In this document: piece by piece, positions 1,203 to 47,488 of the stretch
How positions within the stretch are numbered: position 1 is the stretch's first letter
How the letters are laid out: each line of letters starts with the position of its first letter
Assembly (NCBI GenBank): GCA_001784115.1
Contig: MFPD01000018.1
Coordinates: 1 to 47,508, forward strand
Source of the DNA: Candidatus Levybacteria bacterium RIFCSPLOWO2_02_FULL_37_18
GTDB taxonomy: Bacteria > Patescibacteriota > Microgenomatia > Levybacterales > UBA12049
Reading direction: 5' to 3'
DNA length: 47,508 nucleotides
Notes under the pieces: generated by a model
Told to the model about the DNA's origin: nothing
Database searches by the model: none
What the model saw: only the letters and a program-made list of their open reading frames with translations
Translations under genes and position numbers: made by a program

Positions 1203-3581
1203 TTATAATCTAGCCCGTTGTGCTATCTCCGCTTCCACGACATTCACGTCGCGGGCATATTTGAGGCGTGATAGCTCTTTAATGAGCTCTGCGACACGGG
1301 GGTTAGCAAGCTTTTTCTCATTGGTTAAATCACGAGTTAGGTCCATGGAAAACGGCGGGACAGGCTCACCACCAACAATAGTCTTAATATAGGTGTTAAA
1401 CCGTTCGATATTAATTAAATCCGCTTCGTTAAATGTTGGCTGGAATTCATGCTGAAGGTAATTTGCATCCGTAACTCCAACTCTAAATGATACGACCGAA
1501 CCAACATTGCCAAAAATAGCATTTTTAACTTCTTCTTCCATTTGTCCGATAAACTGATTGGCAACAATTAAGTTAAGCTTGTACTTTCTCGCCTCAGACA
1601 AAATCTGAGCAAAATCAGGCGTGGCAAAATTTTGGAACTCGTCAACGTATAGAAAAAAATCCTGCCTCTGTTCTTTAGGAATATCCTGCCTGCTCATGGC
1701 CGCAACAAGAATTTTAGGAACAAGAACCAAACCAAGAAAGCTACTATTCTCTTCTCCGATTCGCCCTTTGGAAAGATTAATAAGTAAAATTTTTCTCTCG
1801 TCCATAACTTTTCTAAAATTAAACGCGCTGTCGGATTGGCCGATAATATTTCGAATCATTTTATTGGTAACAAATCGTCCAAACTTGGAAACAATGTAAT
1901 CCAAGACTTCTGACTTGTGAAAATCCGACGTCTGGGCGATCTGGTCTGTCCAATAACGCCTGACAATCGGGTCACTCACTTTGGGCAGTAATTCCTGGAC
2001 AAAGGCCGCATCGGTTAACACACGCACAACCTCTATAAACGTGTTTCCTTTCTCTGACATAACAGTTAACATTGCGTTTCTGATTGCGTGCTCAAACCGG
2101 GGTCCAATTATTCCTGTTTGATGAGGATCAAATAATTTGTACATGAGTCCTATGATGGAAGAAACTACATAATGTTTTTGCTCCTCGGTTGCTGCTTCCA
2201 ACATGTTAAAACCCATGGGACGCTGGGTATCCGAAGGGTCAAATAAAATTACTTCTTCTGCTCTTTGGGGCGGAATCATGGGTAAAACATCCTCGATTAA
2301 GTCTCCATGCGGGTCAATTACCGCCAAACCCTGGCCGCTTCGAATGTCTTGCATAATCATGTCTTTTAAGAACTCTGATTTACCAGTGCCTGTTTTGCCT
2401 ATTATATACATGTGTCTTCGTCTGTCATCCAAAGACATATACACAGGCTTGGAAAGACCCCTGTACGTACTTTTTCCTAAGTACAGTCCCGAGTCTGGGA
2501 CTTGGGCCGGTGCGGGAGCTCGCTTTGAAGTAATCCAATGGATATGATGTGTGGCAACACTTTTATTGGGCAAGTGGAAAATCGTTGCCAATTCTTCTGA
2601 GGTTAGTAATGATTTTTGACCCCTGATAGGCATATAACGATAAATAAAATCATTCATGAATAACCCTTTAAAGCGGTGTTTATTGCTTGTAAAAGAATTA
2701 ATGCCGTCAAACTGGGCAAATGCGCTTTTTATATTATTTAAATGCGCTTTTGCAGCTTCTTGGGTAGTTGAGGAAACTACCATCCGAATCACAACTTTAA
2801 ACCCCGGTTTACCGATTTTATTTTCGATTGCTTCTAATTCTTTTGCGTCCGAAGAATATTTCGCAGTCTCAGGATTTGCTTCTGTTTTCTTAACATGGGC
2901 AATATGGTTTCTGCCATGCTCTTTCCATTTACCCGAAGCAGGCTCAACCAAAATTTGAATTGTCGCTCCCTCGCCTTCTGTCATTTTTGCCAGTACCGAG
3001 GTAATCGAAGACAAAGGATCTGTTGGCAAATCTTTAAATACCTTAATTGGTACGTATTCATGTCCTTTTGTTTTTAATGACGTAAAAGCAACTTTTCCTG
3101 TTTCTGAAAATATATTGTACTCATTGCCTAAGATATATTTTTTTCCCTGTCCTTCTTCTACAACAGTGATTTCCGCATCCGGATACGCGCCGTTTATTTG
3201 TTTTTCTACCATGTCCCGCAATTTTTGAGGTATGTAGATAAAAAATCGGATGTCTCCCGGAAGACCGGCAATTTCAAAACCAATATGAGGCTGGTGTTTT
3301 AAAAAAGAAAACCTTCCTCCCTCGTAAAGTGAAGCAAACGAAGCAAACATTTGCTCTGCTGCGTCTATTTTTATTTCATTATCCCTTGGCAGGGCAACTT
3401 GAAGAAGTACGCTATGGAGCGAGCGATCTTCCCTGTCTTTATTTCTATACCAAAGAACAAACAGGTATCCAAGTCCCCATAAAAGAAATGCTGCAATAAT
3501 CGCAGCAAACAACCCAAAAGTCAGAGCGATTAATAAATTTGTTAATGCATCAAGTGAAAAGGTTTGAATAGTAAGATTCAT
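1203..3581 (-). CDS. Type IV secretion VirD4/TraD-like DNA-binding ATPase
   Basis: Walker A 'IIGKTGTGKSEFL', Walker B 'DFFLYVDEFQNF', N-terminal TM, 'LAVIDPHGDLIEDVL'. Confidence 0.85.
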   Translation of the reverse strand: MNLTIQTFSLDALTNLLIALTFGLFAAIIAAFLLWGLGYLFVLWYRNKDREDRSLHSVLLQVALPRDNEIKIDAAEQMFASFASLYEGGRFSFLKHQPHIGFEIAGLPGDIRFFIYIPQKLRDMVEKQINGAYPDAEITVVEEGQGKKYILGNEYNIFSETGKVAFTSLKTKGHEYVPIKVFKDLPTDPLSSITSVLAKMTEGEGATIQILVEPASGKWKEHGRNHIAHVKKTEANPETAKYSSDAKELEAIENKIGKPGFKVVIRMVVSSTTQEAAKAHLNNIKSAFAQFDGINSFTSNKHRFKGLFMNDFIYRYMPIRGQKSLLTSEELATIFHLPNKSVATHHIHWITSKRAPAPAQVPDSGLYLGKSTYRGLSKPVYMSLDDRRRHMYIIGKTGTGKSEFLKDMIMQDIRSGQGLAVIDPHGDLIEDVLPMIPPQRAEEVILFDPSDTQRPMGFNMLEAATEEQKHYVVSSIIGLMYKLFDPHQTGIIGPRFEHAIRNAMLTVMSEKGNTFIEVVRVLTDAAFVQELLPKVSDPIVRRYWTDQIAQTSDFHKSEVLDYIVSKFGRFVTNKMIRNIIGQSDSAFNFRKVMDERKILLINLSKGRIGEENSSFLGLVLVPKILVAAMSRQDIPKEQRQDFFLYVDEFQNFATPDFAQILSEARKYKLNLIVANQFIGQMEEEVKNAIFGNVGSVVSFRVGVTDANYLQHEFQPTFNEADLINIERFNTYIKTIVGGEPVPPFSMDLTRDLTNEKKLANPRVAELIKELSRLKYARDVNVVEAEIAQRARL

Positions 3582-10589: not shown

Positions 10590-11147
10590 TCAATTTGATA
10601 AAAATATACTTACTTGACCGTCAAAGCCCCTCAGTCTTTTATCGCTATGCATAAACTGTTCTTTTAGATTTTTTGGTCCAGTTTTGAGCAAAGAGGCAAG
10701 AATAGCTCTGTGTTTTTTAAGAGAACGGACAAGATTTTGAGCTTGATTTGCAATATCTTTTCCCTGTGTTTTTGCATCTTTTGCCAGCATTATTGCCTTT
10801 TCAAAATAATTCTCACTTTTTGAAATGGTAGAATATGCAAGCTCGGACTTATCAGCACGCTTTTTAAGAAGCATTATACCTGCTTGTAACCGCTTATCAG
10901 ACTCAAGCAGGTAAAACTCTGATTTTTTAAGTGAATCCGCGATTAAAAATTCGATGATTCTGTCTCGTATAACTTTTGCTATATATAACGGGCTGTCCGG
11001 TAAAAGACCCGGATACGGAAGTATATACTCTTCTCCTGAGGCAGTAGAAACAGAATCCAAAAACGCATCTTTTACCTGAGCGTATACCATCAAAGGATAT
11101 ATTAATAGACACATTGACAGCAGAAAGATTAAAACAAAATTTCTCAT
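10590..11147 (-). CDS. Secreted DUF5667-like protein
   Basis: Signal peptide; 'LPYPGLLPDSPLYIAKVIRDRIIEFLIADSLKKSEFYLLESDKRLQA'. Confidence 0.65.
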   Translation of the reverse strand: MRNFVLIFLLSMCLLIYPLMVYAQVKDAFLDSVSTASGEEYILPYPGLLPDSPLYIAKVIRDRIIEFLIADSLKKSEFYLLESDKRLQAGIMLLKKRADKSELAYSTISKSENYFEKAIMLAKDAKTQGKDIANQAQNLVRSLKKHRAILASLLKTGPKNLKEQFMHSDKRLRGFDGQVSIFLSN

Positions 11148-12385
11148 CTTTTCCCAACTATATTAAGCCAGTAACTTTTTGACTCATTAAATGGATATGT
11201 AAACAACTGCCCGTACATCTCGCTTCCATAAAACTCAAGATGCCGAAAACCGGCTTTTCGTAAAACACTGCTTACCTGATCTTTATCCATATGTAAAGTT
11301 GGAAGACTATTGGCTGTTCGAAATATCCATTTCCCCTTATTATAATCAAAAATCATACGCGTATAGGTAATCATCTTCCCTCTTTTATTGCTGTAAAAGC
11401 TTATTGAAAGATTTCCTTCCTTTTTAGATGGATTATAGCGCTGGATAAAATCCCTCATTCCTCCCTGCTCGTTATAAAACCGGTGGAAATTTGCGATCTG
11501 AAATATAAACAAAGATCTTTTTTGATTCATGACATTTTTTATTCCTGATAGAATATTTTTTTCAGTAAACGATACATGAGGCAATGCATTACCCATAAAA
11601 ATTACTGCGTCAATATCGCTAGGTATTAGATTGACAATTTTTTTATATGGCCCTCTTAAAAAGGTTATTTTTTCCTGAAGGTGTTTTGGGAGTTTCTCTT
11701 TCTTTTTTTCGGCAAAATCAGTCATAATTCCGCTTACTTCAAGCCCAAATACCTCAAATCCTTTTTGCGCTAAAGCAATCGTATGTTCACCAGTACTTGA
11801 AGCGATATCAATTACTTTTACCACTTTTTCTCGCCTAAAAAGAGTTAATAAATCTGGGATTTCACCAGCAAGTCTTTTTTTCCAATCTATAACTAAGTCA
11901 TAATATCGAGCAAGCCAATCGTAAAATCCTTCTTCTTCATGTAAGGGAAGCCTTTTTTGAATAACAGCTTCAAAAATATCACCCTTAGATACTATACCAA
12001 TTAGTTTATCTTGTGAATCAACAACTGGAAGACGCCCGATTTTATGAACAAACATGAGTGATTGGGCTTTTAAAAGAGGTGTGTCTTCGGTTACTGTCTG
12101 AAGGTTTTTACTCATGATTTTTTCTGCCGGCAGGCTCAAAACATCGGCTGTCTTTTTTTCCATGCTCTCAAAATCCGAGGCATGAACCGGATCTTCGATA
12201 AATTCTGATACCGAGGGAAAAAGTTGCGCAATAATATCTCTTTCTGTTATAAAACCAACAAGTTTTAATCCGTCTACTACGGGAACTCCGTTAATTCCTC
12301 TGCCAAAAATAATCCGCGCGACATCTTTGATGGCCGTGTTGACGGTTACATAGTCAACTTCCCGATTCATTACATCAGAGACTTT
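11144..12385 (-). CDS. Fusion: tandem CBS domains plus class I SAM-dependent methyltransferase (ORF extends to 12442; likely start MKVSDVMNR)
   Basis: 'MKVSDVMNREVDYVTVNTAIKDVARIIFGRGINGVPVVD...IMSKNLQTVTEDTPLLKA...GRLPVVD' then 'VVKVIDIASSTGEHTIALAQKGFEVFGLEVS'. Confidence 0.85.
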   Translation of the reverse strand, partial: KVSDVMNREVDYVTVNTAIKDVARIIFGRGINGVPVVDGLKLVGFITERDIIAQLFPSVSEFIEDPVHASDFESMEKKTADVLSLPAEKIMSKNLQTVTEDTPLLKAQSLMFVHKIGRLPVVDSQDKLIGIVSKGDIFEAVIQKRLPLHEEEGFYDWLARYYDLVIDWKKRLAGEIPDLLTLFRREKVVKVIDIASSTGEHTIALAQKGFEVFGLEVSGIMTDFAEKKKEKLPKHLQEKITFLRGPYKKIVNLIPSDIDAVIFMGNALPHVSFTEKNILSGIKNVMNQKRSLFIFQIANFHRFYNEQGGMRDFIQRYNPSKKEGNLSISFYSNKRGKMITYTRMIFDYNKGKWIFRTANSLPTLHMDKDQVSSVLRKAGFRHLEFYGSEMYGQLFTYPFNESKSYWLNIVGKR

Positions 12386-12511
12386 CATAGACGAATTTTT
12401 CTCCCCTACTTTATCATTTGCAGAAAAAAATAGCAAGAACAAAGAATTCTTCTTACAAGCTTATTACCCCCCCCTTCCGGTATGTTTCCGTAAATATCCG
12501 GCACTACTCTC

Positions 12512-22774: not shown

Positions 22775-24907
22775 ATGAAAAAAATCCTTAACACTCGCAA
22801 GATTAAATGGACAATTGCAGGCATTATACTAACTGCAGCAGTTTGCTTTTCCCTTCTTTTTTATTTTTATATTATCAAAGACCTTCCTTCTCCAACCCGG
22901 CTCGTAAGCGCTTCTATTCCTCAGTCAACTCAAATTTTCGACAGAAATAATACGCTCCTTTATACCATTTACTCCTCAAAAAACCAGACCTTTATTCCCC
23001 TGTCTTACATTCCTGCCTCCATGCAGCAAGCAATTATTTCCATCGAGGACAAAGACTTTTATAATCACGGCGCAATTGACATAAAAGGCACTGTCAGAGC
23101 TTTTATTTCAACGGTTTTCAAACGAGAAATCCAGGGAGGATCAACGATTACCCAACAACTGGTAAAAAATTCATTACTTACTTCTGAAAGAACAATTATA
23201 AGGAAAATCAAAGAAGCCCTTCTTTCTTTTGCAGCCGAAGCTTTATATTCAAAAAAGAAAATTTTGGAAATGTACTTAAATCAAGCTCCGTTTGGCGGAA
23301 CTGCCTGGGGCATTGAAGCTGCTTCTCAGAGGTATTTTGGCAAATCAGCAAAAGACCTCACCCTTGCCCAAAGCGCGCTTTTGGCAGGCCTTACCGAAGC
23401 GCCAACAGCATATTCTCCTCAAACCAATCCCCATCTGGCCAAGCAAAGACAAATTGAAGTACTCAAAAAAATGTACCAGCAAAAATATATCTCAAAAAAA
23501 CAACTGGATGAAGCAATTAAAACTCCACTTACCTATCAACAGATATCAGAAGGCATTAAAGCGCCTCATTTTGTCTTGTACGTCAAAGAGTTATTAGTGC
23601 AAAAATATGGAATTAAAAAAGTTGAGCAAGGCGGTTTAAAAGTTATTACAAGCCTTGATTTACCGACTCAAGAATATGCCCAAGCTACAGTTTCAGCAGA
23701 AATTTCCAAGCTGGTATCCTTTGACGTTGGCAATGGGGCAACTCTTATCACCAATCCCAAAACAGGAGAAATCTTAGCCATGGTTGGCAGCCGGGATTAT
23801 TTTGACACCGAGCATGACGGAAATGTCAATGTTACCTCATCTCTTCGGCAACCAGGTTCTGCCATAAAACCAATCAACTACGCTGTTGGACTTATAAAAG
23901 GATTTACCGCTGCTTCTCCTTTTGTTGATCAAAAAACCTGCTACCCAAATCCCACTGGCAGTCCCTATTGCCCGGTTAACTATGACGGGAAATTCCATGG
24001 TGTAATGCAAATGCGGTTTGCGCTGGCAAATTCAATCAACATTCCGGCGGTAAAAATGTTAAAAGCAAATGGAGTTTCGGATATGATTGCCACTGCTTCT
24101 GCCATGGGTATTACTTCTTTTACCGATTCTAGCAGATATGGACTTTCTCTCACCCTAGGAGGAGGCGAAGTCACCATGCTTGAGCTTACAACCATGTATG
24201 GCGTATTTGCCAATAATGGCTATCGGGTAGATTTGCATCCGATTTTAAAAGTAACCGATGCAAACGGAAAAGTACTGGAAGAATACAAGCCAAAAGAAAT
24301 TTTATTTGCCAAAAAAATCCTCCCGGAAGGAGTCGCGTTTATTATTTCCCATATTCTCTCTGATAATGGCGCTCGTGAACTTGAGTTCGGGCCAAATTCA
24401 GAGCTTAAAATCAGCAATTTTCCCGTATCAGTCAAAACAGGAACCACGAATGATTTCAGAGACAACTGGACTGTTGGATACACCCCGGATAGAGTTGTAG
24501 CCGTATGGGTTGGAAATAATGACAATCACCCCATGAGCGGACTGGTATCTGGAGTAACTGGCGCAGCTCCCATTTGGCATAAACTCATGAAGCACATGCT
24601 GGAAGGCACAAAACCCAGACTTCCTGTTATGCCGACAAATGTTATCGGCAAAACCATTTGTGCTGCTTCTGGTCTTTTGCCACCTGAGGAAAGTACTCCC
24701 GACCGCTGCCCAACGAGATTTGAGTATTTTATACGAGGCACTCAACCCGCAAAAGTAGATCCGGGAAGGCAAAAAGTTTTAATAGACAAAGCAACCAATG
24801 ACCTGGCAAAGCCAGATCAAAAAGATAATGTTGAAGAAAAAGATGAACTGGTGGTAACCGACGTTGTCGGCGACCGCTATTGCATCACCTGCCCCCACCC
24901 CGAATAA
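22775..24907 (+). CDS. Class A penicillin-binding protein (PBP1A-like transglycosylase/transpeptidase)
   Basis: 'AIISIEDKDFYNHGAIDIKGTVRA...IQGGSTITQQLVKN','TSSLRQPGSAIKPINY','VKTGTTNDFRDNWTVGYTPD'. Confidence 0.95.
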   Translation: MKKILNTRKIKWTIAGIILTAAVCFSLLFYFYIIKDLPSPTRLVSASIPQSTQIFDRNNTLLYTIYSSKNQTFIPLSYIPASMQQAIISIEDKDFYNHGAIDIKGTVRAFISTVFKREIQGGSTITQQLVKNSLLTSERTIIRKIKEALLSFAAEALYSKKKILEMYLNQAPFGGTAWGIEAASQRYFGKSAKDLTLAQSALLAGLTEAPTAYSPQTNPHLAKQRQIEVLKKMYQQKYISKKQLDEAIKTPLTYQQISEGIKAPHFVLYVKELLVQKYGIKKVEQGGLKVITSLDLPTQEYAQATVSAEISKLVSFDVGNGATLITNPKTGEILAMVGSRDYFDTEHDGNVNVTSSLRQPGSAIKPINYAVGLIKGFTAASPFVDQKTCYPNPTGSPYCPVNYDGKFHGVMQMRFALANSINIPAVKMLKANGVSDMIATASAMGITSFTDSSRYGLSLTLGGGEVTMLELTTMYGVFANNGYRVDLHPILKVTDANGKVLEEYKPKEILFAKKILPEGVAFIISHILSDNGARELEFGPNSELKISNFPVSVKTGTTNDFRDNWTVGYTPDRVVAVWVGNNDNHPMSGLVSGVTGAAPIWHKLMKHMLEGTKPRLPVMPTNVIGKTICAASGLLPPEESTPDRCPTRFEYFIRGTQPAKVDPGRQKVLIDKATNDLAKPDQKDNVEEKDELVVTDVVGDRYCITCPHPE

Positions 24908-24983
24908 CCCCATCCAACTAAGTCTCCATAATTCTTCCCCTTCCAAAAAAATCGCTCCTATAGTATAATCTTCTGACCGAAAT

Positions 24984-27401
24984 TTGAGCTTATCTTATAT
25001 GGATTATCTTACCCGCCTGATTGTCTTCATTTTACTCGTGTTTATAAAAATAGGTGACCCTGTGTTTTGGGTACTATCAACTCTAACTAAAATAGTGTGG
25101 CAGATCTGCCTTGTAGTACCTAAAACTATTACAGCCCTTGCAAAACTGAGTAAGCGAATTGCCAAAAGAACTTCCAAAAAAGAAGTAGTTATTTTTGAAA
25201 CCAAACCTTATTTACTAGAAAAAAAACCAAAGAGAAAACCTAAAAGAAAGTTTAAATTCCCAAAATTCCATTTTTCCCTGCCGAAGATTTCTATCCCAAA
25301 ACCTTCTTTTTCTTTTTTATTTGTAAAAAAACTTAAGAAAAAAGCTTCTCATAAAAAGAAAAAACAAGTATTGCTTCCGCAAAAAATTAAAAAACCAAAG
25401 CGTTTTGCTACGTTTCAATTTCCATTTTTATTAAAATTCAGATACTTTTTTATCGGATTTTTCTTTTCCACTTGTTTTGTATTTATTCCGGCAGTCTTAG
25501 TTATTTTTCTTCAAGACATCCCAAGCCCAAAAGAGCTTTTATTTCGCCAGATTCCCCAAACTACTAAAATCTACGATCGAAACGGCATTCTCTTGTATCA
25601 AGTCTATGCCTCACAAAACAGAACTCTCGTAACTCTCTCTGACATTCCTGTGTCTCTAAAGCAAGCCACCATTTCCATAGAAGATAAAGATTTTTATAAG
25701 CATCCAGGATTTGACCTTGTAGCCATAGCCCGGGCAACCTATGTAAATCTTTCTGGAAAAGATATACAAGGCGGTTCAACTATTACTCAACAACTCGTTA
25801 AATCCGCCCTGCTTTCTTCGGAACAAACTTTTTTACGCAAACTCAAAGAAGTTATTATCGCGTTCTTAGCAGAAAAAATATACACAAAGGAACAGATTTT
25901 GGAGATGTACTTTAATCAAGTTCCTTATGGAGGCACAGCCTGGGGTGCGCAAGCTGCTTCGGAAAAATACTTTGGTAAGAGTGTAAAAGAGATAGACCTT
26001 GCCCAAAGCGCTTTTTTAGCCGGCATGCCTGGGGCTCCCACCTTTTATTCACCATATGGAGAAAATAAAACTGCCTGGAAAAAGAGACAAAAAGAAGTAT
26101 TAAACCGCATGCTTGCACTCAGGTTTATCTCTCCCGAACAAAAAATCCAGGCAGAAGAGGAAGAATTATTTTTTATCAACGAACAACCACCGCTCAGAGC
26201 TCCCCACTTTGTCTTATATGTCAAGGATGTATTAGTCAGGAAGTATGGACTGGCTGCGGTCGAACGAGGCGGATTGTCAGTAACAACCAGTATTGATTTA
26301 AATCTGCAAGAACAAGTGCAAAAAATCGTCCAAGAAGAAGTAGAAAAAGCTTCTCCCCTCCATGTCACCAATGGCGCCTCACTTGTCACCAACCCGCAAA
26401 ACGGAGACATTTTAGCTATGATTGGCAGTATTGATTACGATAACGAAAATGGAGGGAATGTAAACGTGACTACGTCTCTTCGCCAACCAGGTTCTTCCAT
26501 AAAAGTTGTGACCTATGGGGCAGCACTTTCCAAAGGGTATACATCGGCTTCTCTTTTAGACGACAGCCCCATTACATTCACAAATCCCTATGGCCAGTCG
26601 TACTCTCCGGTTAATTATGATGGTAAATTCCGTGGAAAAGTCTCTTTACGCCTTGCATTAGGAAATTCATTTAATATTCCTGCTGTTAGAACTATTAATC
26701 AACTCGGAGTTCCAACCATGGTAGATTTAGCCAAAAAAATGGGTATAAAAAGCTGGGGACTGCCTAATCAATACGGCGTATCTATTACGCTTGGGAGCGC
26801 CGAAGTAACCATGCTTGATTTGAGCAATGTGTATGGAGTGTTGGCAAACAGAGGTATCCGAGTCGACGTCAATCCCATTTTAAAAGTAACAGATTACAAA
26901 GGGAATGTGCTTGAAGAAAAATCACAAGATTATTGGTACACCCAACCGTCAACGAATAACCAGCGCGTCCTAGACGAAGGCGTGACATATATAGTATCTG
27001 ATATACTTGCCGATAACAGTGCCCGTGTTTTAGAATTCGGCCAAAATTCCCCTCTGTATATTCCTGGAAAAAAAATATCTGTAAAAACAGGCACCTCCGA
27101 TAACAAACGGGACAACTGGACAATCGGGTATTACCCAAAAAGACTTGTGGCTGTATGGGTCGGCAATAATGACAACACACCCATGAGCCCAAACTTAGCC
27201 TCCGGAATCACTGGCGCGGCTCCCATTTGGAATCGAATTATGAATCTTTTGACTTCTTCTATTCCTGTTGAGAATGTAAAAATGCCGGATGATATTGTTG
27301 CAAAACAATGTCTTGGAAGAACCGAATATTTTATTAAAGGGACGGAAAATTCAGTCAACTGCGCCCCCCCGCCAAAACCAAGTCCAACGCCTACTCCGTA
27401 G
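24984..27401 (+). CDS. Second class A PBP (PBP1A-like) with long basic N-terminal extension
   Basis: 'ATISIEDKDFYKHPGFDLVAIARA...IQGGSTITQQLVKS','TSLRQPGSSIKVVTY','SVKTGTSDNKRDNWTIGYYPK'; Lys-rich segment between two TMs. Confidence 0.95.
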   Translation: MSLSYMDYLTRLIVFILLVFIKIGDPVFWVLSTLTKIVWQICLVVPKTITALAKLSKRIAKRTSKKEVVIFETKPYLLEKKPKRKPKRKFKFPKFHFSLPKISIPKPSFSFLFVKKLKKKASHKKKKQVLLPQKIKKPKRFATFQFPFLLKFRYFFIGFFFSTCFVFIPAVLVIFLQDIPSPKELLFRQIPQTTKIYDRNGILLYQVYASQNRTLVTLSDIPVSLKQATISIEDKDFYKHPGFDLVAIARATYVNLSGKDIQGGSTITQQLVKSALLSSEQTFLRKLKEVIIAFLAEKIYTKEQILEMYFNQVPYGGTAWGAQAASEKYFGKSVKEIDLAQSAFLAGMPGAPTFYSPYGENKTAWKKRQKEVLNRMLALRFISPEQKIQAEEEELFFINEQPPLRAPHFVLYVKDVLVRKYGLAAVERGGLSVTTSIDLNLQEQVQKIVQEEVEKASPLHVTNGASLVTNPQNGDILAMIGSIDYDNENGGNVNVTTSLRQPGSSIKVVTYGAALSKGYTSASLLDDSPITFTNPYGQSYSPVNYDGKFRGKVSLRLALGNSFNIPAVRTINQLGVPTMVDLAKKMGIKSWGLPNQYGVSITLGSAEVTMLDLSNVYGVLANRGIRVDVNPILKVTDYKGNVLEEKSQDYWYTQPSTNNQRVLDEGVTYIVSDILADNSARVLEFGQNSPLYIPGKKISVKTGTSDNKRDNWTIGYYPKRLVAVWVGNNDNTPMSPNLASGITGAAPIWNRIMNLLTSSIPVENVKMPDDIVAKQCLGRTEYFIKGTENSVNCAPPPKPSPTPTP

Positions 27402-34238: not shown

Positions 34239-35963
34239 ATGGACTCGCATATTTCTTTTGGTAAAATTGTCGCAAGTCCTACGTTTTCTTCCTGGTCTCA
34301 GGTTTATAGCACAGGCTCTCTTTTTGCCGTTATCTCCCTTTCCAAAACTCAAGCAGACCAAGACGAACATACCTCCCTTTCTTTAGCGGGAAAAGAGATG
34401 TTAGACACTCTCGAACAAGAGTATTTTTCTCTTGAAGAAAAGAATCTGGACACGATAAGGCAAACAATTTTGCAAACGAAAGAAAAGCTACCAGATGGTA
34501 TTTTACTTTGTTTTGTCGTAACTGCAATTGTTAAAAATATTGCTTATTTGATAATCATTGGAAACGGAAAAATAATACTCAAAAGGCAGGAAAAAATCGG
34601 TGTGTTGCTTTCAAATTCCCATGATCAAGATGTACTTTCCGCCTCAGGCGTGCTTAAACCCGATGACTTGCTTATACTCCAAACCCAAAGCTTTGCCAAA
34701 CTGGTATCCTTTGCGACCTTAAAAGAAGCAATTGATCACAACTCCCCTTCTGAAATCGCAGAAACACTTTCTCCGACAATACATGAAAAAGAAGAAGGAG
34801 CAGCAGCATGCATAATTATCCGCTACACTCCTCCGCTGGTTTCCCACGAACATGAAGATGCAGAACAAGAAGTTGAGGATGGAGAACCTTCCTCATTTTC
34901 CACATTTTCCTCCATTATAATACTTATAAAACGTATCGTACGCCTAAAACAAGAAATTCAGTCTTCAAAAAAACTCTTTTTAGGCCTTGCCGGAATTATT
35001 ATTGTCATTCTTGTCATAAGCGTTTTACTGTCTGTAAAAGGAAGGGAAAATACGAAACGAAATCAATTATTTAAGGAAGTGCTTACGTCTGCTCAAAGAA
35101 AATACGATGAAGGACAAAATCTTATGTCTTTAAATAAAAACATAGCCCGAGACGATTTTTTGCAGGCTTATAAGCTTATCAAAGACAACCTGTCTAAATT
35201 TCCCAAAGGCACATCTGAGGAAAAACAATTATCAGAGTTTCTAAAAAAATCTCAAGACGCGGTACGTTCTTCGCTGGAAACCTCATATATAAATCCAAAA
35301 GAAGTAAGCAATAACATGTCCCCACTATTATCTGCAATAATCGAACATCATGCGCTATTTGGAACGCAAGATGAAGAAAGAATATATTTTCTTGATCAAA
35401 TAGGCATATCTTTTATAGATAAAAAAACCAAGGCAACAAAACAAATTATAAAAAAAGACGAGTACAAAAACCCGGTTGGCCTTGGCACGTTTTTTTCCAA
35501 TATCTATCTCATTGACGATAGTAAGCTTAGTAAATTTGTTTCTTTAGGTTCGGGTTATGCCAAAACAAATTATTTTCCAAAAGACACAAATCCGGATCTG
35601 TCTAAAGCAGTATCCCTGACAATTGACGGAGCGGTATGGGTTTTAAGAAACGATGGCACAATTCAAAAATTTTTAAAAGGCAATGTCGAGAATTTCTCCG
35701 TGAATGGCTTGGATAAACAACTCAACGGCGCAGTCCGTATATTTACCATGATTGATTCAAGCAAGCTATATGTTTTAGATAATGGCAACAGCCGAATTGT
35801 GGTTATTGACAAAGACGGAACGTACAAACAGCAATACCAATCAGACCTGATTAAAAAAGCTAAAGATTTTGAAATTGTAGAAAAAGACCTGCCTGCCGGC
35901 AGGCAAGGCAAAAAAGGCTATCTCCTTGTGGATAATAAAGTATTTGAGTTTGAATTGAAATAA
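34239..35963 (+). CDS. PP2C-like N-terminal domain, one TM, C-terminal propeller-like domain; unknown function
   Basis: 574-aa ORF; TM 'LFLGLAGIIIVILVISVLLSV'; CCTGCCGGCAGG palindrome encodes 'LPAGRQG' near C-terminus. Confidence 0.65.
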   Translation: MDSHISFGKIVASPTFSSWSQVYSTGSLFAVISLSKTQADQDEHTSLSLAGKEMLDTLEQEYFSLEEKNLDTIRQTILQTKEKLPDGILLCFVVTAIVKNIAYLIIIGNGKIILKRQEKIGVLLSNSHDQDVLSASGVLKPDDLLILQTQSFAKLVSFATLKEAIDHNSPSEIAETLSPTIHEKEEGAAACIIIRYTPPLVSHEHEDAEQEVEDGEPSSFSTFSSIIILIKRIVRLKQEIQSSKKLFLGLAGIIIVILVISVLLSVKGRENTKRNQLFKEVLTSAQRKYDEGQNLMSLNKNIARDDFLQAYKLIKDNLSKFPKGTSEEKQLSEFLKKSQDAVRSSLETSYINPKEVSNNMSPLLSAIIEHHALFGTQDEERIYFLDQIGISFIDKKTKATKQIIKKDEYKNPVGLGTFFSNIYLIDDSKLSKFVSLGSGYAKTNYFPKDTNPDLSKAVSLTIDGAVWVLRNDGTIQKFLKGNVENFSVNGLDKQLNGAVRIFTMIDSSKLYVLDNGNSRIVVIDKDGTYKQQYQSDLIKKAKDFEIVEKDLPAGRQGKKGYLLVDNKVFEFELK

Positions 35964-38273: not shown

Positions 38274-38702
38274 TTACTTGGTGGAACGAGAATATTCGCT
38301 TACGTGTTTTACGAAAGGCAAACGTACTTGTTTTATAAATTGTAAATCTGCGGTAATGAGGTAACATTTCTTTTCTTCTGCCAATACTGCATAGAAAGCA
38401 TCATACACCGTGGTTTTATATTTTTTGGCAAACTCAGAAGCTTTTGTAACAAGTGGAATGGTTATCGGCTTAATGGTAAGGCGAATTGTTTCAAGATCTG
38501 CTAGAAATATCCGAATTTCCCCTGCTGTAAGTTTGGTTTTTGTTGTAAAAGCATTAGCAAGTTCGTAAACAATCATATCAGGAACAAGAATAGGCTCTTT
38601 TTTGTCTAAATGGTTTTTCAAGAGCAACAAAGCTTTGGGAAGATGATCTTCTTTATCCGAAGCAAACCATTTGAATGCAACAGAGGTATCAACAACTACC
38701 AT
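38274..38702 (-). CDS. PIN-domain toxin (VapC-like)
   Basis: 'MVVVDTSVAFKWFASDKEDHLPKALLLL...VYDAFYAVLAEEKKCYLITADLQFIKQV'. Confidence 0.87.
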   Translation of the reverse strand: MVVVDTSVAFKWFASDKEDHLPKALLLLKNHLDKKEPILVPDMIVYELANAFTTKTKLTAGEIRIFLADLETIRLTIKPITIPLVTKASEFAKKYKTTVYDAFYAVLAEEKKCYLITADLQFIKQVRLPFVKHVSEYSRSTK

Positions 38703-38947
38703 TTCGCCCCATCTCTCATCTCTCTTACCGTTTTAACGGTATCAATATCCTGTAAGGAACTTCTATTTCCCAAAGCATGCTTTCTGATAGTTTTAAAAAT
38801 ATCCTCAGGAGATTTTTCTGTATGTGCTTTTGTAATTTTAGCTCGAATTATAGAAGCCAGGCTTTTTCTGGTTTTGAGTGCTTCTTCCTTAAGCCGTATA
38901 TAATCCTCTTCGGGAATTCTGATATTTGTAGTTATAAAACTTCCCAT
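38696..38947 (-). CDS. Ribbon-helix-helix-like antitoxin
   Basis: 'TTNIRIPEEDYIRLKEEALKTRKSLASIIRAKI'; overlaps PIN gene by 7 nt. Confidence 0.75.
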   Translation of the reverse strand: MGSFITTNIRIPEEDYIRLKEEALKTRKSLASIIRAKITKAHTEKSPEDIFKTIRKHALGNRSSLQDIDTVKTVREMRDGAKW

Positions 38948-39405: not shown

Positions 39406-40590
39406 TTAAAAATCACCTCGTTCCATTTCGGCGGCAACAATGGTTTTGGCATCCTCAAGATTTGTTATAGGATTTTCTGGTTTACTCATAAGTTCGGAAA
39501 TACGTTCGGCAGCTACTTTTGTTCGCGCTGTTGCCTCGCCATCTCCTAACATGCGAAGATCGTTTACTCTCTGCCGAAGATCATTTCTTCCTTCTTGTTC
39601 TCTTGCCGCGTCTTGAGGTATGTTTTGTCGTCTTCCAAGCGTCCACCAGCTTCTTCCTTGAGAAGGAGTTGGATGTGGTGGAGAAGTTGGTTGTGGACGT
39701 GCTTCTGGCCGAGTCGCTGCCCGCAAACGCTCGATGTCTTCGGCAGTTACCTCAGGCTGCTCTTCTTCTGTCGCTTGTCTTAGATAAATTTCTCCAGCCT
39801 GGTTAAGTCTTCTGGCTCTTGCAACCATTTCCTGCTGAGCGTCTTCAATTCTGGATAGTCTTTGCGGACCCATTTTGGCAAATGCGTCAATTACCGCTCC
39901 GCTCCGGTTGCCTAGTGTTTTAATAATCTTTTCTCGAGTTTTTTGAGAGGCGCCGCGCAAGGCAAGAGCAATAGTTTCCACATCGTTTACACCTTGAAAA
40001 ACCCGGGCAACAGTTGTGGGATCTAAATTTGCCAAGTCATCAAACGTAAACATATTCTTTCTAATTTCATCGGCAAGTTCTGGTGAGGATTCATCAAGGA
40101 ACTCCAAAGCATCTTCTCGACTAACAGGATCTTCGGCTTTAAGTATCTCAACAAGTTGTTTTACTCCGCCAACACTTGTATACTTACCTTGCGTTGATTC
40201 TACTTTTTTTCTGAGTAAATCAGATGCTTGCCGTATGACCTGGGAATTTGTTCCGGTTGCCTCCAACTGCGCAATCCGCATGGCAACATCTGCTTGGGCT
40301 TCTGAAGATAGTGAAGTTAAAACTTGCGCTGCTTGTTCTGGGGGCATATGAGACAACGTAAGGGCAATGGCCTGCGGATGTTCACCTTGAATAAGGGGAA
40401 CTAACTGAACTGGAGCTACATCAGCAAGAAAATCAAATGGACGATTTTCTGTCTGAGTTCCTGGCTCGGTAATCTGTGGATTGGTAGAGAACGCAGTGGT
40501 TAACTCAGCAGACGATAAAGCAGAAACAGGCAGAATTGCCAGGGGATTAACCGGTTCGCGAGGCGGAATTTGTACAGCTTCACTAATCAT
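39406..40590 (-). CDS. FliG-like protein (FliG middle and C-terminal domains; disordered N-term and C-terminal extension)
   Basis: 'LVPLIQGEHPQAIALTLSHMPPEQAAQVLTSLSSEAQADVAMRIAQLE' and 'SSPELADEIRKNMFTFDDLANLDPTTVARVFQGVNDVETIALALRGASQKTREKIIKTLGNRSGAVIDAFAKMGPQRLSRIEDAQQEMVARARRLNQAGEIYL'. Confidence 0.88.
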   Translation of the reverse strand: MISEAVQIPPREPVNPLAILPVSALSSAELTTAFSTNPQITEPGTQTENRPFDFLADVAPVQLVPLIQGEHPQAIALTLSHMPPEQAAQVLTSLSSEAQADVAMRIAQLEATGTNSQVIRQASDLLRKKVESTQGKYTSVGGVKQLVEILKAEDPVSREDALEFLDESSPELADEIRKNMFTFDDLANLDPTTVARVFQGVNDVETIALALRGASQKTREKIIKTLGNRSGAVIDAFAKMGPQRLSRIEDAQQEMVARARRLNQAGEIYLRQATEEEQPEVTAEDIERLRAATRPEARPQPTSPPHPTPSQGRSWWTLGRRQNIPQDAAREQEGRNDLRQRVNDLRMLGDGEATARTKVAAERISELMSKPENPITNLEDAKTIVAAEMERGDF

Positions 40591-40646
40591 ATAGGTTTAG
40601 TATAGGCATATTTTTACGAGAATGCAAGCGTTTTCTCTAAAGCGTT

Positions 40647-41801
40647 TTAACGGCGTACGGGAGTAGCGGGAGGGGTCTCTTTAAGGAGCGATTCTAAATC
40701 TAAAAATTCGGATTCAGGCTGAGCCAGCGCTTTGGCAACAGGTGGTTTGGAGGCTTGTAGAGCCGAAGCTGCTTTTCTTGCTTTTCCTCTACGGCTGAGC
40801 TGGGCTGTTTGAATAGTTGGACTGGCAGCAGGTTCGGCACGTTCGAGTATAGTTTCTTCAAGTATCGTAAAATCAACCCTTCTTCCTTTTGTATGGGCTG
40901 CTTCATAAGCTTGAGCTATAACTTGTTGGTATTTCTCTGGTTCCTCCTCTTTAAAAAGTTCTTCAGGATCTTGATCTAATTGGTCAGTTATGTATTTTTT
41001 ATATTCTTCAGAAGAAGTAGTCATGCCTTTTCTTTGCAGGATTTCTGCAATAAGCTCTCTACGATACTTCTGATACAAGGGGTTCTCATGGAGAAATGCT
41101 TGGATGGTATTTTGTTCTCGAATTTTAGTAGCTTCTTTTTCTGGATTAACAAATGTGCCTTCTAGGATATTTTCTCCAATTTTATAATCTACATATGATC
41201 CGGGTTTATAGTCTGGAGGAAGGGTATATTGCAATCGGTGTCTTAGCCTGGCATTTTCTTTTTGACTTTCATCAAGCAATCTTCTCGTGTTTACCAGTTC
41301 TTCTGCTTGTTGCCGATTTTGTTGTGAGGACGATTCTTGGATTCCTACAGCTTCTTTTTTTGCCCGTGCAGTTCTTATATGAAGCCTTTCAAGCTCTGCT
41401 TTTGCAGCTTCGATTTGAGGAGTGAGCTCGTCTAATACAGCTTGTGCTGCTGTTTTTATTTTCTTAAGAGGTAGTTCTTTTATTTCTCTCGCTCTAGCGG
41501 CTTGACTTACGCTTTTACGGACGCGTTGTCTGTTTTGTAAATCTTCCACTTTTAAAGGAAGCGATGTTGCCGCGATTTGTTCTTGGGGGGCTGACGGCGG
41601 TGGTTGGTATTCCTCAAGTCGCTTCCGAATAGTATCTAAAGATTGAGGATTTTCTTTTTGGGCGGTATTCCCGGATACAACAGAGGAGAATGCGGATGCT
41701 AAGTCTGCTGATGACAATTGAGTAGCCGATCGGAAGGCATGTCCTGTTTGAGGCTCACTTTTCGGTTGTATTTGATGTGGAAAAGGCAGTTCGGATGGCA
41801 T
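40647..41801 (-). CDS. Coiled-coil protein upstream of the FliG-like gene, unknown (ORF extends to 41858; likely start MPSELPFPHQ)
   Basis: Long heptad-rich region 'IEAAKAELERLHIRTARAKKEAVG...QQAEELVNTRRLLDESQKENARLRHRL'. Confidence 0.7.
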   Translation of the reverse strand: MPSELPFPHQIQPKSEPQTGHAFRSATQLSSADLASAFSSVVSGNTAQKENPQSLDTIRKRLEEYQPPPSAPQEQIAATSLPLKVEDLQNRQRVRKSVSQAARAREIKELPLKKIKTAAQAVLDELTPQIEAAKAELERLHIRTARAKKEAVGIQESSSQQNRQQAEELVNTRRLLDESQKENARLRHRLQYTLPPDYKPGSYVDYKIGENILEGTFVNPEKEATKIREQNTIQAFLHENPLYQKYRRELIAEILQRKGMTTSSEEYKKYITDQLDQDPEELFKEEEPEKYQQVIAQAYEAAHTKGRRVDFTILEETILERAEPAASPTIQTAQLSRRGKARKAASALQASKPPVAKALAQPESEFLDLESLLKETPPATPVRR

Positions 41802-41977
41802 GCTTGCATTATACAAATACAGAGGAGTTGTTTGCAAGCTTGTTACTTGACCGCACACATTTTACCGTTCGCCTTTTCAGTACTATTCGTACACGGTTCA
41901 CGGAGCAATGTTGAAGGGTCTTCGCTTAGGTTTTGACGACTTGACTTTTTATTTGTTAAATATAACAATGGATATAT

Positions 41978-42310
41978 ATGGAGCTTTCAAAAGAGCGGTT
42001 GTATCGTGTAGAGCAGTTGCTTGTCGAGACAGTTATTAAAGCATTGGAGCAGGGTGGAATAAAAGAAATAGATCTTCCTCCTGTTTCTTCTTATATCTTA
42101 GACCATGTGCAAATCATAAAAACAGAAGAAGAGTTAATGAAATTCCTGCGGGAACTTTCTAGCAAATGGTCAATTTTTACACCGGTATTAGTACTGGAAA
42201 GCGGGGAGGTGCAAAAAAAAATGGAATCTGAAGTTATTTCAGGAATTTTAGAACTTGCAAAAGATAATAAAATTGACGAAGCGGTAAGCCTAGCAAAGTC
42301 AGCAACTTAA
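41978..42310 (+). CDS. Small uncharacterised protein
   Basis: 110-aa ORF, 5 nt upstream of the next gene; divergent from the FliG-like operon. Confidence 0.65.
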   Translation: MELSKERLYRVEQLLVETVIKALEQGGIKEIDLPPVSSYILDHVQIIKTEEELMKFLRELSSKWSIFTPVLVLESGEVQKKMESEVISGILELAKDNKIDEAVSLAKSAT

Positions 42311-42314
42311 ATTT

Positions 42315-44039
42315 ATGCCACCAAGTACAGTGCCTGGTAGTCAAGTAGAATTAGCCAGATCAATGGCGCAAGCTCCGGCAGTGCGAACATTGGGGTGGGA
42401 ACGCGCGGAAAAACTAAACCAAAGATATCAGGAAATAAAAAACACAGAGCACCCAACAGACGCGCTTCGTCCGGAAACTCGAGGAGCATTTACCATAGAT
42501 ACGGCAGCAGAAATTAGTAGGCGCATCAAAGACCCAACGCGTCTTGGGCAAGCAGATGCCGCAGTCAGAAGATCAGAGGCAGCAAGACGAGGACAATTAA
42601 CTGTTCCTCCTCTTGCTCCGGCCCAACGAGCTGCCCTTGTTGAAAACCTTACCAGGGAGGCAGTTATGTCCCGTCCTGCGTTTCGGGCGCTTCTAGATCC
42701 TACAACAGGCGCAATGACGTCGGAGGCGTTGTCTGTTATTGATCAAGTAATAGACAGTACGCGGTATCAGGAAAAGGTTCAAAAACTCATGGAGGCAAGT
42801 CTTAATCCCGATGAGGATATTGTCACCGCTTTGGCAGCGGTTGTAAAAGAAGAATTAGACGCAAAAACAGCCCTCGATACAAAAGTTGCCACATTTCCTT
42901 CGGCCCGAGGTATAACAGAAGCCCAGCTTCAAGCAGAAATTGATGAATTCGCGGAAAGTCCTTGGAATACAGCAGGTACAAAAGGAGATTGGATAAAAGC
43001 ATTAGCAACAAATGAAGCAACAGATAGACAGCTTATAAAAGATATTACAGATGAAGCAAATGATCTTGTAACAGCTGGCAGGCTTACAAGAGCGCAGTGG
43101 GATGCGCAGTTAGCAGATGTAAGACACAAAGTTCGTACAGGAGTCGCGTTAAGCGCAAGTGAACAAAATCTTAAAGATTTTATGGATGCTCAAAATCGTA
43201 TGCGAGAGCTTGATGGATTAAAAGTAGAAAAGGCGAATTGTGAAGAAGTTCTTAAGCTTACCAAAGATCACGCTGCCGCAAAGGAAAAATTAGATACCGC
43301 GAAAGCACGTCAAGAAGACGCAGTGGTAAAGAAATTAGACAGTATTATTAAAGACGCTGCGGATATAATATTAGACGAAGAAATCAATGCTCGACTAGAA
43401 GTCTTAAATACGCAACTAGCTGAGGACACTACTAACGCCAAATCAGAAGATGAAAAACATCTGTTTGAAAGTCTTAAGCTACAACTAGAAAAACCGGTAT
43501 ATAAAAATGGCGTTGAGGTAGATTCTAAGATAGACAAAGATATGACCCGAATGTATTTTGGCGAAATGATGGCAAAAGGACCTGAGCATGCAATAAGAGA
43601 ATTACTCATGGGAGATATTACAAGGAGAATAGATCCAACAGCAGTACCACCTGCTCGGTATAGACCAGGAACTCCTGGATATATTGCAGAAGTTGTCCGC
43701 ATCAACAAACAATTAAGCAATAGAGAGTTTATGGATGCAGTAAGAGGAAAGGTTGTCAAACACGTAGCTTCTAGACACTTCTTAACCGGCGGTAAGATTA
43801 CAAAAAATCAAATCAGGTTGCTTAGAGAGACAGACTGGGGTCAGGCATTAGTAAGCGACGCGATGGAAGAAAATAGAGAGCTTATGAGGCAGATATCAGC
43901 AGCAGGAGATAATCTTGCCGGATTCTGGAATAAGGTTAAGCGTGCAAGTAGTGGAAACTTCCTTTTGTTTCTCGTCATGCTTCTTGCGATCCCAACAGTT
44001 ATGAAGCTTGGCGGAGTAGTGAATCCTAACAAATTTTAA
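42315..44039 (+). CDS. Ala/Glu-rich helical protein with C-terminal TM anchor
   Basis: 574-aa ORF; C-terminal 'FLLFLVMLLAIPTVMKLGGVV'. Confidence 0.7.
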   Translation: MPPSTVPGSQVELARSMAQAPAVRTLGWERAEKLNQRYQEIKNTEHPTDALRPETRGAFTIDTAAEISRRIKDPTRLGQADAAVRRSEAARRGQLTVPPLAPAQRAALVENLTREAVMSRPAFRALLDPTTGAMTSEALSVIDQVIDSTRYQEKVQKLMEASLNPDEDIVTALAAVVKEELDAKTALDTKVATFPSARGITEAQLQAEIDEFAESPWNTAGTKGDWIKALATNEATDRQLIKDITDEANDLVTAGRLTRAQWDAQLADVRHKVRTGVALSASEQNLKDFMDAQNRMRELDGLKVEKANCEEVLKLTKDHAAAKEKLDTAKARQEDAVVKKLDSIIKDAADIILDEEINARLEVLNTQLAEDTTNAKSEDEKHLFESLKLQLEKPVYKNGVEVDSKIDKDMTRMYFGEMMAKGPEHAIRELLMGDITRRIDPTAVPPARYRPGTPGYIAEVVRINKQLSNREFMDAVRGKVVKHVASRHFLTGGKITKNQIRLLRETDWGQALVSDAMEENRELMRQISAAGDNLAGFWNKVKRASSGNFLLFLVMLLAIPTVMKLGGVVNPNKF

Positions 44040-44976: not shown

Positions 44977-45381
44977 TCATTTGCACGTATCAAATCCTAC
45001 CATTCTAATGCAGGGGATGCTAAGAACATAAGAGAGAGTGGAGAGGATAAAGCCGGATAACAATACTAAGACGAGTCCAACAATGGCATACGTTATTACG
45101 GTTCTGGCTTCTTCGACTTTTTTCGGATCACCATGGGACAACAGAAATTTTACCCCGGACCAGATAATGAGCAGTACCGCAATTGACCCGGCAAGCGTAA
45201 AAGCGGCAGTGATGAGGTTTTGAAATAAATACGGAACACAGCTTAAGGTAGCAGCGCCTTCTTTGAGACAATCTCCCCAGAAATTAGTTTGGCCGGTGGT
45301 ATTTCCCGGATCAAGCTGAGGATCTTGGGCAAGAAGGTTGTCCATACCTTGTAGCATAGCAAGGAAAAAAACAGAAAACAA
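44977..45381 (-). CDS. VirB2/TrbC-like pilin paralog 1
   Basis: 'AAFTLAGSIAVLLIIWSGVKFLLSHGDPKKVEEARTVITYAIVGLVLVLLSGFIL'. Confidence 0.8.
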   Translation of the reverse strand: MFSVFFLAMLQGMDNLLAQDPQLDPGNTTGQTNFWGDCLKEGAATLSCVPYLFQNLITAAFTLAGSIAVLLIIWSGVKFLLSHGDPKKVEEARTVITYAIVGLVLVLLSGFILSTLSYVLSIPCIRMVGFDTCK

Positions 45382-45441
45382 GACTTAGATTTGTTATAGA
45401 TTTGGTAAAAGAAAGTAAGTGTCACTTGCCACACCAGGAGT

Positions 45442-45900
45442 TTAAGTTGGAACTGGAATAGCTGTGGGTTGATCTGTTACAGTTTTAAGAGTTGGAATTT
45501 TAAGATTGCTAAGATTTACCCCAGATCCCAGGAAAAAGTTTAATACTAAGTTGATAATAAGATAGGAAAGAGCAATGATAACAAGACCAATGATAGCTGC
45601 AATAATCTGATTTCTGGCTGTTTCTACGTGTCCTTTGTCTCCTTCGGATGTAATCCACTTAATAGCGCCATAAATAAGGTAGCCTAAAGCCAAAATTATA
45701 GCAAGAACAAAGATTAATCCAATTGCCTGACCGACAATGGGACCAAATCTGTCAACAGTAAGGCCGCAAAGTGGACTAAACGAACCATCTTTGGGACATA
45801 CGTCAACTTCAGTTTCCACTGCAAATGCAGGCATCGCAAGAGTTAGATATGAAATAGCAGCAACAAGAGGAGCAAGAATTTTTCTCATTACTACAATCAT
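45442..45900 (-). CDS. VirB2/TrbC-like pilin paralog 2 with signal peptide
   Basis: 'LIFVLAIILALGYLIYGAIKWITSEGDKGHVETARNQIIAAIIGLVIIALSYLIINLVL'. Confidence 0.8.
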   Translation of the reverse strand: MIVVMRKILAPLVAAISYLTLAMPAFAVETEVDVCPKDGSFSPLCGLTVDRFGPIVGQAIGLIFVLAIILALGYLIYGAIKWITSEGDKGHVETARNQIIAAIIGLVIIALSYLIINLVLNFFLGSGVNLSNLKIPTLKTVTDQPTAIPVPT

Positions 45901-45918
45901 AAGACTTTTTTTTCACAC

Positions 45919-46269
45919 TTGTCAAGATGGGAAAAAGAAGATAGGATAAAAAAGATGAAGCTTCTAGCGCTTTCTATTCCCACATTTGGTGATGTAAGAG
46001 GACCATCGGGGATTCCAACCGGCGGATATGGGAGTTTGGGTACTATTATTCAATTTTTAGTGAGCTTTGCTTTTTTTGGAGCAATTATTATCTCGTTATT
46101 TTTTGTTGTTTGGGCTGGAATTAAGTTTACTATGTCCCAAGGTGACAAGCAAAAAATCGAACAATCCAAAGATATAATAAAATACGCGGTTATTGGTATT
46201 ACGATTATTGCGCTTTCGTTTTTGATTGTTGGAATAATTGGTAATTTTTTTGGAGTTCCATTGGTGTAA
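45919..46269 (+). CDS. VirB2/TrbC-like pilin paralog 3 (likely start MKLLALSIPTFG, 45955)
   Basis: 'FFGAIIISLFFVVWAGIKFTMSQGDKQKIEQSKDIIKYAVIGITIIALSFLIVGII'. Confidence 0.78.
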   Translation: MSRWEKEDRIKKMKLLALSIPTFGDVRGPSGIPTGGYGSLGTIIQFLVSFAFFGAIIISLFFVVWAGIKFTMSQGDKQKIEQSKDIIKYAVIGITIIALSFLIVGIIGNFFGVPLV

Positions 46270-46309
46270 ACTGACACAATTAAATTCGATATTCGAAATT
46301 TTCTTTGGC

Positions 46310-47488
46310 CTATCGGCCAAGGCCCGGTAAATGCAAAATATCCACTCCTACTACCTCTAGAATAACCAGAGAAAAAACAATAAAAAGAAGGCCGACGATT
46401 GCAGAAGTGAGGGTTTCCCGCGCGCCTTGCAATTTGGCCTGGTCGCCGGCTGCCGTCATGTACCTATAACCTGAAAAAATAATAATAAGCATGGCAACAC
46501 CGCCTGATAGAGACAGTAAAATCGAAAAGACTTTTTTGACAAATTCCATGGGATCTGTGCCGATAATGCCAAGCCCCGTATCAAACTCAACACATTTGTA
46601 TTTAATAGCTTTATCCTTTTTTATCTGATCTACTGTAACCTCTTGTCCATCTTGTATGTTTATAAACTTTTTGCAAGGAGGAAGAGGGGGAGTGGGTGAG
46701 GAAGAAGGAAGAGGAGTTGCGGTTCTTAAATTTGTAATATTAAAATTTGCTGTACCTGATTTATATTCTGTGCTTCCTATATTAAAAACAGCATATGCAC
46801 AAACCGTACCCGTTGTTGACGTGGTGGCCCTAATGGATCTAACCTCTGTTGAGATATCTTTTGAAAAAAGTCCAGCTTCATCGCTAGTGACAGTTGCAAG
46901 CGCAGAATACGTTTTACAATCATCTGCATATAAAATATTAATAGGAGTTTCAGAAGGATTTGTTATATTTAATACTTTTCCACTAAAAATAAAAGTATCT
47001 TCAAAGGCTCCGGTATTTGTACATCCTCCATTCGGGAGAAAAGGTGGAGCTGGTTCTCCTTGCTTGTATACACAAATACTAGCATCCTGAATTTTTGGTC
47101 CCGTAGTATTCTCAGTTACAATAAGAGTAATAGTTGCAGAATCATTTCCTACAGAATTATAACCACTTATTCTTAACGTATAAGTTCCGGCATTTGGAAT
47201 ACCTCCCATATAAAGCGATCTACTTCCCGACTTTAGTTTATACCCTGCGTAGGCACCGGTTGGTACTGTACAGGTTGATATAAGAGAAGAAGGAGAACCA
47301 CTTGGGACAGAAGGAGTGTAAAAAAATCCGTAACAACCATTTCGTACAGCTCCGCTGTATTGAATAGAAAAAGACTGGCCTTTAGCAAGTGGACCTGTTG
47401 GAGGAGTGACGCGAAAACCTGCGTATGCTTTTTGCGCAGAAGAAAAACTAAGAAGTAATAAAATGAAAAAAAAGAAAAACTTTTTCAC
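46310..47488 (-). CDS. Secreted Ig-like ectodomain fused to C-terminal VirB2/TrbC-like pilin module (paralog 4)
   Basis: Signal peptide; 'GTYTLRISGYNSVGNDSATITLIV'; C-term 'KKVFSILLSLSGGVAMLIIIFSGYRYMTAAGDQAKLQGARETLTSAIVGLLFIVFSLVIL'. Confidence 0.8.
   Translation of the reverse strand: MKKFFFFFILLLLSFSSAQKAYAGFRVTPPTGPLAKGQSFSIQYSGAVRNGCYGFFYTPSVPSGSPSSLISTCTVPTGAYAGYKLKSGSRSLYMGGIPNAGTYTLRISGYNSVGNDSATITLIVTENTTGPKIQDASICVYKQGEPAPPFLPNGGCTNTGAFEDTFIFSGKVLNITNPSETPINILYADDCKTYSALATVTSDEAGLFSKDISTEVRSIRATTSTTGTVCAYAVFNIGSTEYKSGTANFNITNLRTATPLPSSSPTPPLPPCKKFINIQDGQEVTVDQIKKDKAIKYKCVEFDTGLGIIGTDPMEFVKKVFSILLSLSGGVAMLIIIFSGYRYMTAAGDQAKLQGARETLTSAIVGLLFIVFSLVILEVVGVDILHLPGLGR

Follow-up and report, generated by a model that had tools for sequence, protein, structure and literature searches.

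Results

A FliG core that lacks the FliF-binding domain

The stretch of DNA analysed here (the window, 47,508 nucleotides) is one whole contig, C18, of a 31-contig draft genome of 1.11 Mb that is 96.5% complete. On its minus strand, positions 39406-40590 hold an intact open reading frame of 394 codons with an ATG start, whose product we refer to as the FliG-like protein. Pfam recovered both the FliG middle domain, FliG_M (9.9e-22; residues 60-134, positions 40189-40413), and the C-terminal domain, FliG_C (6.7e-30; residues 165-270, positions 39781-40098), each over its cut-off, and the best solved relative found by phmmer in the PDB was the middle plus C-terminal fragment of T. maritima FliG (1.6e-45 over residues 50-276). 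The TIGR00207 fliG model also matched, with an E value of 1.7e-53, through model positions 107-334 only; its score of 182.2 bits lies below the curated full-length cut-off of 226.7 because the first third of FliG is absent. An alternative identity, MgtE_N (the N domain of the Mg2+ transporter MgtE), was rejected, given its Pfam value of 7.9e-6 against 6.7e-30 for FliG_C.

We modelled the protein with AlphaFold2, using 27 FliG relatives, and obtained a core with pLDDT of about 85-95. In the AlphaFold2/Foldseek comparison each domain of this core matched crystal structures of its counterpart, FliG_M or FliG_C, with TM scores of 0.82-0.93 and rmsd of 1.1-1.5 Å. An earlier note, made from the sequence, had read FliG middle- and C-domain signatures at this position, and Pfam, TIGR00207, phmmer and AlphaFold2 all agree with it, in coordinates as well as strand. 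We conclude that 39406-40590(-) encodes a genuine FliG middle and C-terminal core without the FliF-binding N domain.

Pfam did not recover FliG_N in this reading frame, and the TIGR00207 alignment starts at model position 107, in keeping with the earlier note, which had found that domain unrecognisable. The sole Pfam FliG_N match (0.0032, residues 72-135) falls on the middle domain and is thus a cross-hit between related repeats. In place of FliG_N there is an N-terminus (residues 1-49, positions 40444-40590) containing the motif QIPPREP...LSSAELTTAFS. Its residues 1-46 have pLDDT below 50 and one short helix at 28-32, so that AlphaFold2 predicts the same disorder that the note had described. 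Contig C9 gave a weak further hit to the N-terminal region (E 8e-4), which is interrupted by two in-frame stops and was set aside as chance. The C-terminal extension, put at about 130 aa in the note, does exist and measures 118 aa (residues 277-394, positions 39409-39762). It is made up of a helix, a Pro-rich linker and a three-helix module at residues 324-391 (pLDDT about 63-87), and had no Pfam match and no significant PHROGs or PDB match.

In flagellar FliG, 62 positions show conservation of 93% or more, and these we counted as near-invariant. The FliG-like protein retains 43 of these, including EHPQ (residues 70-73), GG and MFxF (MFTF at 180-183), and is altered at the other 19. Salmonella FliG residues K264, R281, D288, D289 and R297, which we take to be the stator-contacting charged residues in E. 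coli/Salmonella, map to R212, R229, D235, A236 and R244; four of the five charges are therefore kept, and the D289 position is an alanine. In flagella, EHPQ sits at the FliM contact and MFxF is a key node of the C-terminal domain (PMC4642947, PMC3091841). The retention of EHPQ, GG and MFxF together with four stator charges suggests that constraint still acts on the fold and surfaces.

A genome without FliF, FliM, FliN or MotA

The region around fliG has no flagellar operon. Genome-wide searches with YscJ_FliF, FliMN_C and MotA_ExbB gave no match, while controls in flagellated species were positive; the motor-gene search consisted of these three families. What had been noted earlier for the window, that no motor genes are present, thus extends genome-wide for these families. 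The FliM-contact and MFxF motifs and the stator charges persist although FliM and MotA were not found in the genome. FliG itself is rare in this part of the tree: among about 740 distinct related genomes (374 of the class and 380 of the phylum, overlapping sets), FliG_C occurred in one, the window's own, and no other CPR FliG was found.

A coiled-coil neighbour with a similar N-terminus

Directly upstream, positions 40647-41801(-) encode a lineage-specific coiled-coil protein of 384 aa. Its product is predicted to be soluble, with long helices at residues 85-151 and 158-193 in a low-confidence single-sequence model. We obtained no significant Pfam, PDB or PHROGs/phage match for it, no detectable match to FliH, FliF or FliM, and no homologue in 59 related genomes. 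Its phyletic pattern is the same as that of fliG, absent from the relatives searched, so the co-occurrence that the earlier note had considered holds for this gene.

The two proteins have a short N-terminal similarity, 16 identical columns over about 41 residues, with the common core QIxPxxEP...LSSA[DE]LxxAFS. When the first 80 residues of the 40647-41801 protein were shuffled 500 times, its local score of 50 was reached twice; 46-residue pieces cut from the other window ORFs scored 41 at most. A motif model run against the whole genome with E up to 10 returned only these two N-termini; because it was built from both sequences, this search speaks to uniqueness, not significance. No likeness between the two genes was seen at the DNA level for this motif, so recent duplication is not supported.

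Each gene is also preceded by a promoter-like element of similar type found by pattern search. TTGCAT-17-TATACT (40599-40627, minus strand) lies 8 nt before the FliG ATG and TTGCAA-18-TATAAT (41808-41837, minus strand) 6 nt before that of 40647-41801, both in leaderless arrangement. Three TTGCA-17/18-TATAMT elements occur in the window, compared to 0.42 expected. Since each gene has its own element, the two are likely to be separate units under common regulation, not a single operon. The 40647-41801 promoter is flanked by inverted heptamers, GCTTGCA...TGCAAGC, at 41802-41845; GCTTGCA also opens the fliG promoter-like element, and a shared operator is possible.

T4SS genes and other neighbours

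Divergent to the fliG/40647-41801 pair are two plus-strand genes. The one at 41978-42310 encodes a 110-aa protein conserved in CPR relatives beside T4SS genes (36-45% identity to genes in L015, L016 and L017), and its companion at 42315-44039, present in some CPR relatives, encodes a 574-aa tail-anchored protein with a C-terminal TM segment. Four T4SS pilin genes of PF18895 (Pfam 1e-11 to 1e-7) follow on both strands at 44977-47488, about 4.4 kb from fliG, and a T4SS coupling-protein (VirD4/TraG-like) ATPase is encoded at 1203-3581(-) (Pfam T4SS-DNA_transf 4.5e-9, TrwB_AAD_bind 4.8e-9). The relatives compared, L015-L018, belong to the same family or order as the window genome. In such relatives the 110-aa and ~600-aa genes adjoin T4SS pilins, or genes that by eye look PrgI-like and VirB4-like. 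L015 (4594-9067) carries two tandem copies of the pair formed by the 110-aa and the ~600-aa tail-anchored gene, which points to a two-gene module tied to CPR T4SS loci.

The 110-aa, 574-aa and pilin genes at 42-47 kb have counterparts in L015-L018 (the pilins in L016), and on the other side of fliG the ComF and PP2C-like genes at 34-38 kb have counterparts in L018 in a matching neighbourhood. Because genes on either side have CPR homologues, the contig is not a stray contaminant. The relatives' genome sizes (0.3-1.6 Mb), the T4SS pilin genes and this shared neighbourhood indicate that the organism is probably a member of the Patescibacteria (CPR). In L015-L018 the T4SS-associated genes occur without FliG, which argues that FliG is not a conserved T4SS component; the link between the fliG pair and the T4SS is one of proximity only. 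The gene at 42315-44039, which had been named along with 40647-41801 as a gene that might co-occur with fliG, belongs to the wider T4SS neighbourhood instead.

Several other genes of the window deserve mention. Directly downstream of fliG, 38274-38947(-) encodes a PIN-domain toxin and a ribbon-helix-helix antitoxin (VapBC-like). The gene at 34239-35963(+) encodes another 574-aa protein with a TM segment, whose N-terminal half is PP2C-like and C-terminal half propeller-like by weak family scores; it is 40% identical to the product of an L018 gene near ComF and is possibly an envelope phosphatase. Two successive class A penicillin-binding proteins (transglycosylase plus transpeptidase), one with a long N-terminal extension, are encoded at 22775-27401(+), and 11144-12442(-) holds an unusual fusion of CBS domains to a methyltransferase domain.

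Origin of the fliG gene

An alignment-based scan of GTDB genomes yielded at least 556 FliG-encoding stretches, of which 80 loci were kept for comparison. Among the matches listed, the closest FliG by far was that of L019, a Chloroflexi groundwater MAG (JACQGX010000393.1), with an E value of 6e-61 (next, 2e-51). Its 47% identity made it the nearest of 88 compared, again among the matches listed, and none of 41 genomes of its class held a closer FliG. As read from the sequences, the L019 protein is full length with FliG_N, and its gene is preceded by flgC-like, fliE-like and fliF-like ORFs. FliGs from IMG/VR and phages were rejected as near relatives, since they were flagellar-operon fragments, clustered with Spirochaetota/Bacillota or were very divergent (L102).

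In an 89-row tree, the window FliG and L019 shared one branch (support 76/91), a grouping that is not decisive because both are long branches; that of the FliG-like gene has 1.84 changes per site versus a median of 0.10. The placement may thus reflect a long-branch effect. The two also share a 2-residue insertion in FliG_M (EATGTNS/EGTGVAP), found in no other of the 89 rows from the matches listed, and this points to horizontal acquisition. The earlier note had envisaged a FliG phylogeny that would include CPR sequences; the tree we obtained places a Chloroflexota flagellar FliG nearest, the window's protein being the sole CPR member. Acquisition from a related flagellated bacterium would be the most economical reading of these sequences, with Chloroflexota as the likely donor.

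The codon composition of fliG is host-like. GC3 is 0.306 for fliG and 0.273 for 40647-41801, both inside the contig range of 0.24-0.43, which suggests long residence and not recent arrival; the overall GC of fliG is the highest among the genes tabulated. Around fliG we saw no repeats of the kind that flank an insertion element.

Discussion

We propose that a Patescibacteria (CPR) lineage without flagella took up a flagellar fliG, the donor probably being a flagellated groundwater bacterium of the Chloroflexota type. The captured FliG would have shed its FliF-binding N domain, acquired a helical module at its C-terminus and a new, disordered N-terminus, and been retained as a cytoplasmic, self-associating scaffold of the armadillo type that works with the coiled-coil product of 40647-41801. 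In flagella, FliG_M and FliG_C are armadillo-like, touch their ring neighbours and pass on conformational change (PMC4642947, PMC3091841). For a FliG that has lost its MS-ring anchor and acquired two new termini, the simplest function would be a cytoplasmic oligomer recruited with its partner. The N-terminal docking motif common to both proteins and their similar leaderless promoters lead us to propose co-expression and recruitment to the same site, which may lie at the envelope, possibly at the neighbouring T4SS. We put at about even the chance that a FliG core was domesticated in this way, as an oligomerising scaffold with the 40647-41801 protein. The earlier suggestion of a repurposed FliG scaffold agrees with the lost anchor, new termini, missing motor partners, host-like GC3 and motif-sharing neighbour.

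Another history would be that a horizontally acquired fliG fragment is a neutral or decaying passenger, still open by chance and without function. FliG_C in a single genome of about 740 fits such a history, as does the adjoining PIN/ribbon-helix-helix toxin-antitoxin pair, which is typical of mobile regions; the long branch and the 19 changed positions would also arise under relaxed constraint. However, 394 codons remain unbroken in a reduced genome, the host-like composition argues that the frame has been open for long, and functional motifs have been selectively retained. In addition, new terminal modules and a partner with a common motif and promoter type are additions, not decay, and we regard the passenger as unlikely, while giving it some weight. 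A binning or assembly artefact that brought in fliG from another organism could be imagined for a 31-contig draft in which the window is one whole contig, but this is scarcely credible when the genes on both sides have CPR relatives in matching neighbourhoods, the GC3 of fliG matches its neighbours and the protein encoded next to it has the same N-terminal motif.

Because fliG lies about 4.4 kb from four pilin genes, divergent to the T4SS-accompanying 110-aa/574-aa pair and on the same contig as a coupling ATPase, it could instead encode a structural or regulatory T4SS/pilus component, a cytoplasmic platform below the T4SS like the C-ring below the flagellum. The earlier note had raised a ring or platform of this kind as a possibility for an envelope machine such as the pilus-like system, and this part of its proposal is not supported: relatives have the same T4SS genes without FliG, so FliG cannot be a general component. 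Moreover, the fliG pair is on the opposite strand with its own promoters and its N-terminal motif is not common to the 574-aa or pilin proteins, making a platform distinctly unlikely. There is also a small chance that the T4SS sends the FliG-like protein, together with the 40647-41801 product, into a flagellated host, where a FliG without the FliF anchor but with its FliM- and stator-contact surfaces would compete with host FliG and alter motility; in its fullest form, to which we give a slim chance, a CPR epibiont exports the captured, anchor-less FliG as a decoy for FliM and stators, and the parasite controls host motility. Such a decoy would account for EHPQ, MFxF and four of five stator charges being kept in a cell with no FliM or MotA and for the missing FliF anchor; the source resembles groundwater Chloroflexota, and the N-terminal motif that the two proteins have in common could serve in targeting. 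Patescibacteria T4SS are mostly without relaxases, and another role such as protein export has been proposed (PMC12102498, PMC10633639). On the other hand, the kept motifs may reflect fold constraint alone, and the 40647-41801 partner has no flagellar resemblance. It also counts against export that, to our knowledge, no export signal is known for Patescibacteria T4SS. Among the passenger, platform and decoy explanations, the decoy is the least supported; should it prove correct, a parasite bacterium would here be interfering with its host in a new way.

On the domesticated-scaffold reading, a component of the rotor has apparently been turned to a different use: a stray FliG has lost its anchor domain and gained a new partner. 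The case is a clean one, since no other flagellar gene was found (FliF, FliM/FliN and MotA families), the likely source lineage is traceable, exactly the motor-anchoring domain has been lost and the neighbour has a common docking motif. It is also a two-gene system that is open to expression and testing.

Compared to flagellar FliG (TIGR00207), the protein has FliG_M and FliG_C over residues 50-276, with about 40% identity to T. maritima FliG, and keeps EHPQ, the GG linker, MFxF and most stator-contact charges. Unlike flagellar FliG, it has no FliG_N, scores below the cut-off, has a disordered N-terminus and a 118-aa C-terminal extension, and comes from a genome in which neither a flagellar operon around fliG nor FliF, FliM, FliN or MotA was found. 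With the L019 FliG it shares the 2-residue FliG_M insertion and the stretches QADVAMRIAQ and LDESSPELADEI, whereas the L019 protein has FliG_N, stops right after FliG_C and directly follows FliF in a flagellar operon.

Arrays of VirB2-like pilins have been described for T4SS of Patescibacteria, most of which are without relaxase; in one species epibiotic growth requires the T4SS, and such systems may serve to export proteins (PMC12102498, PMC10633639). The window's contig resembles them in its pilin array, coupling-type ATPase and 110/574-aa genes; it differs in its FliG, which goes unmentioned in PMC12102498 and is missing from relatives with the T4SS genes. We found no description of FliG in Patescibacteria in the literature searched. 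Rotor-protein homologues without filament genes have been counted in 11% of non-motile species, and an alternative function was raised for them (PMC12199754). The FliG-like protein is like these orphans in being a rotor protein retained without a flagellum, and unlike them in its lineage, Patescibacteria being unmentioned in the accessible part of that study, and in the domain loss, added modules and partner described here. Measured against that part of the study, which already counts orphan rotor proteins in non-motile species, an anchor-less chimeric FliG with a motif-sharing partner is new.
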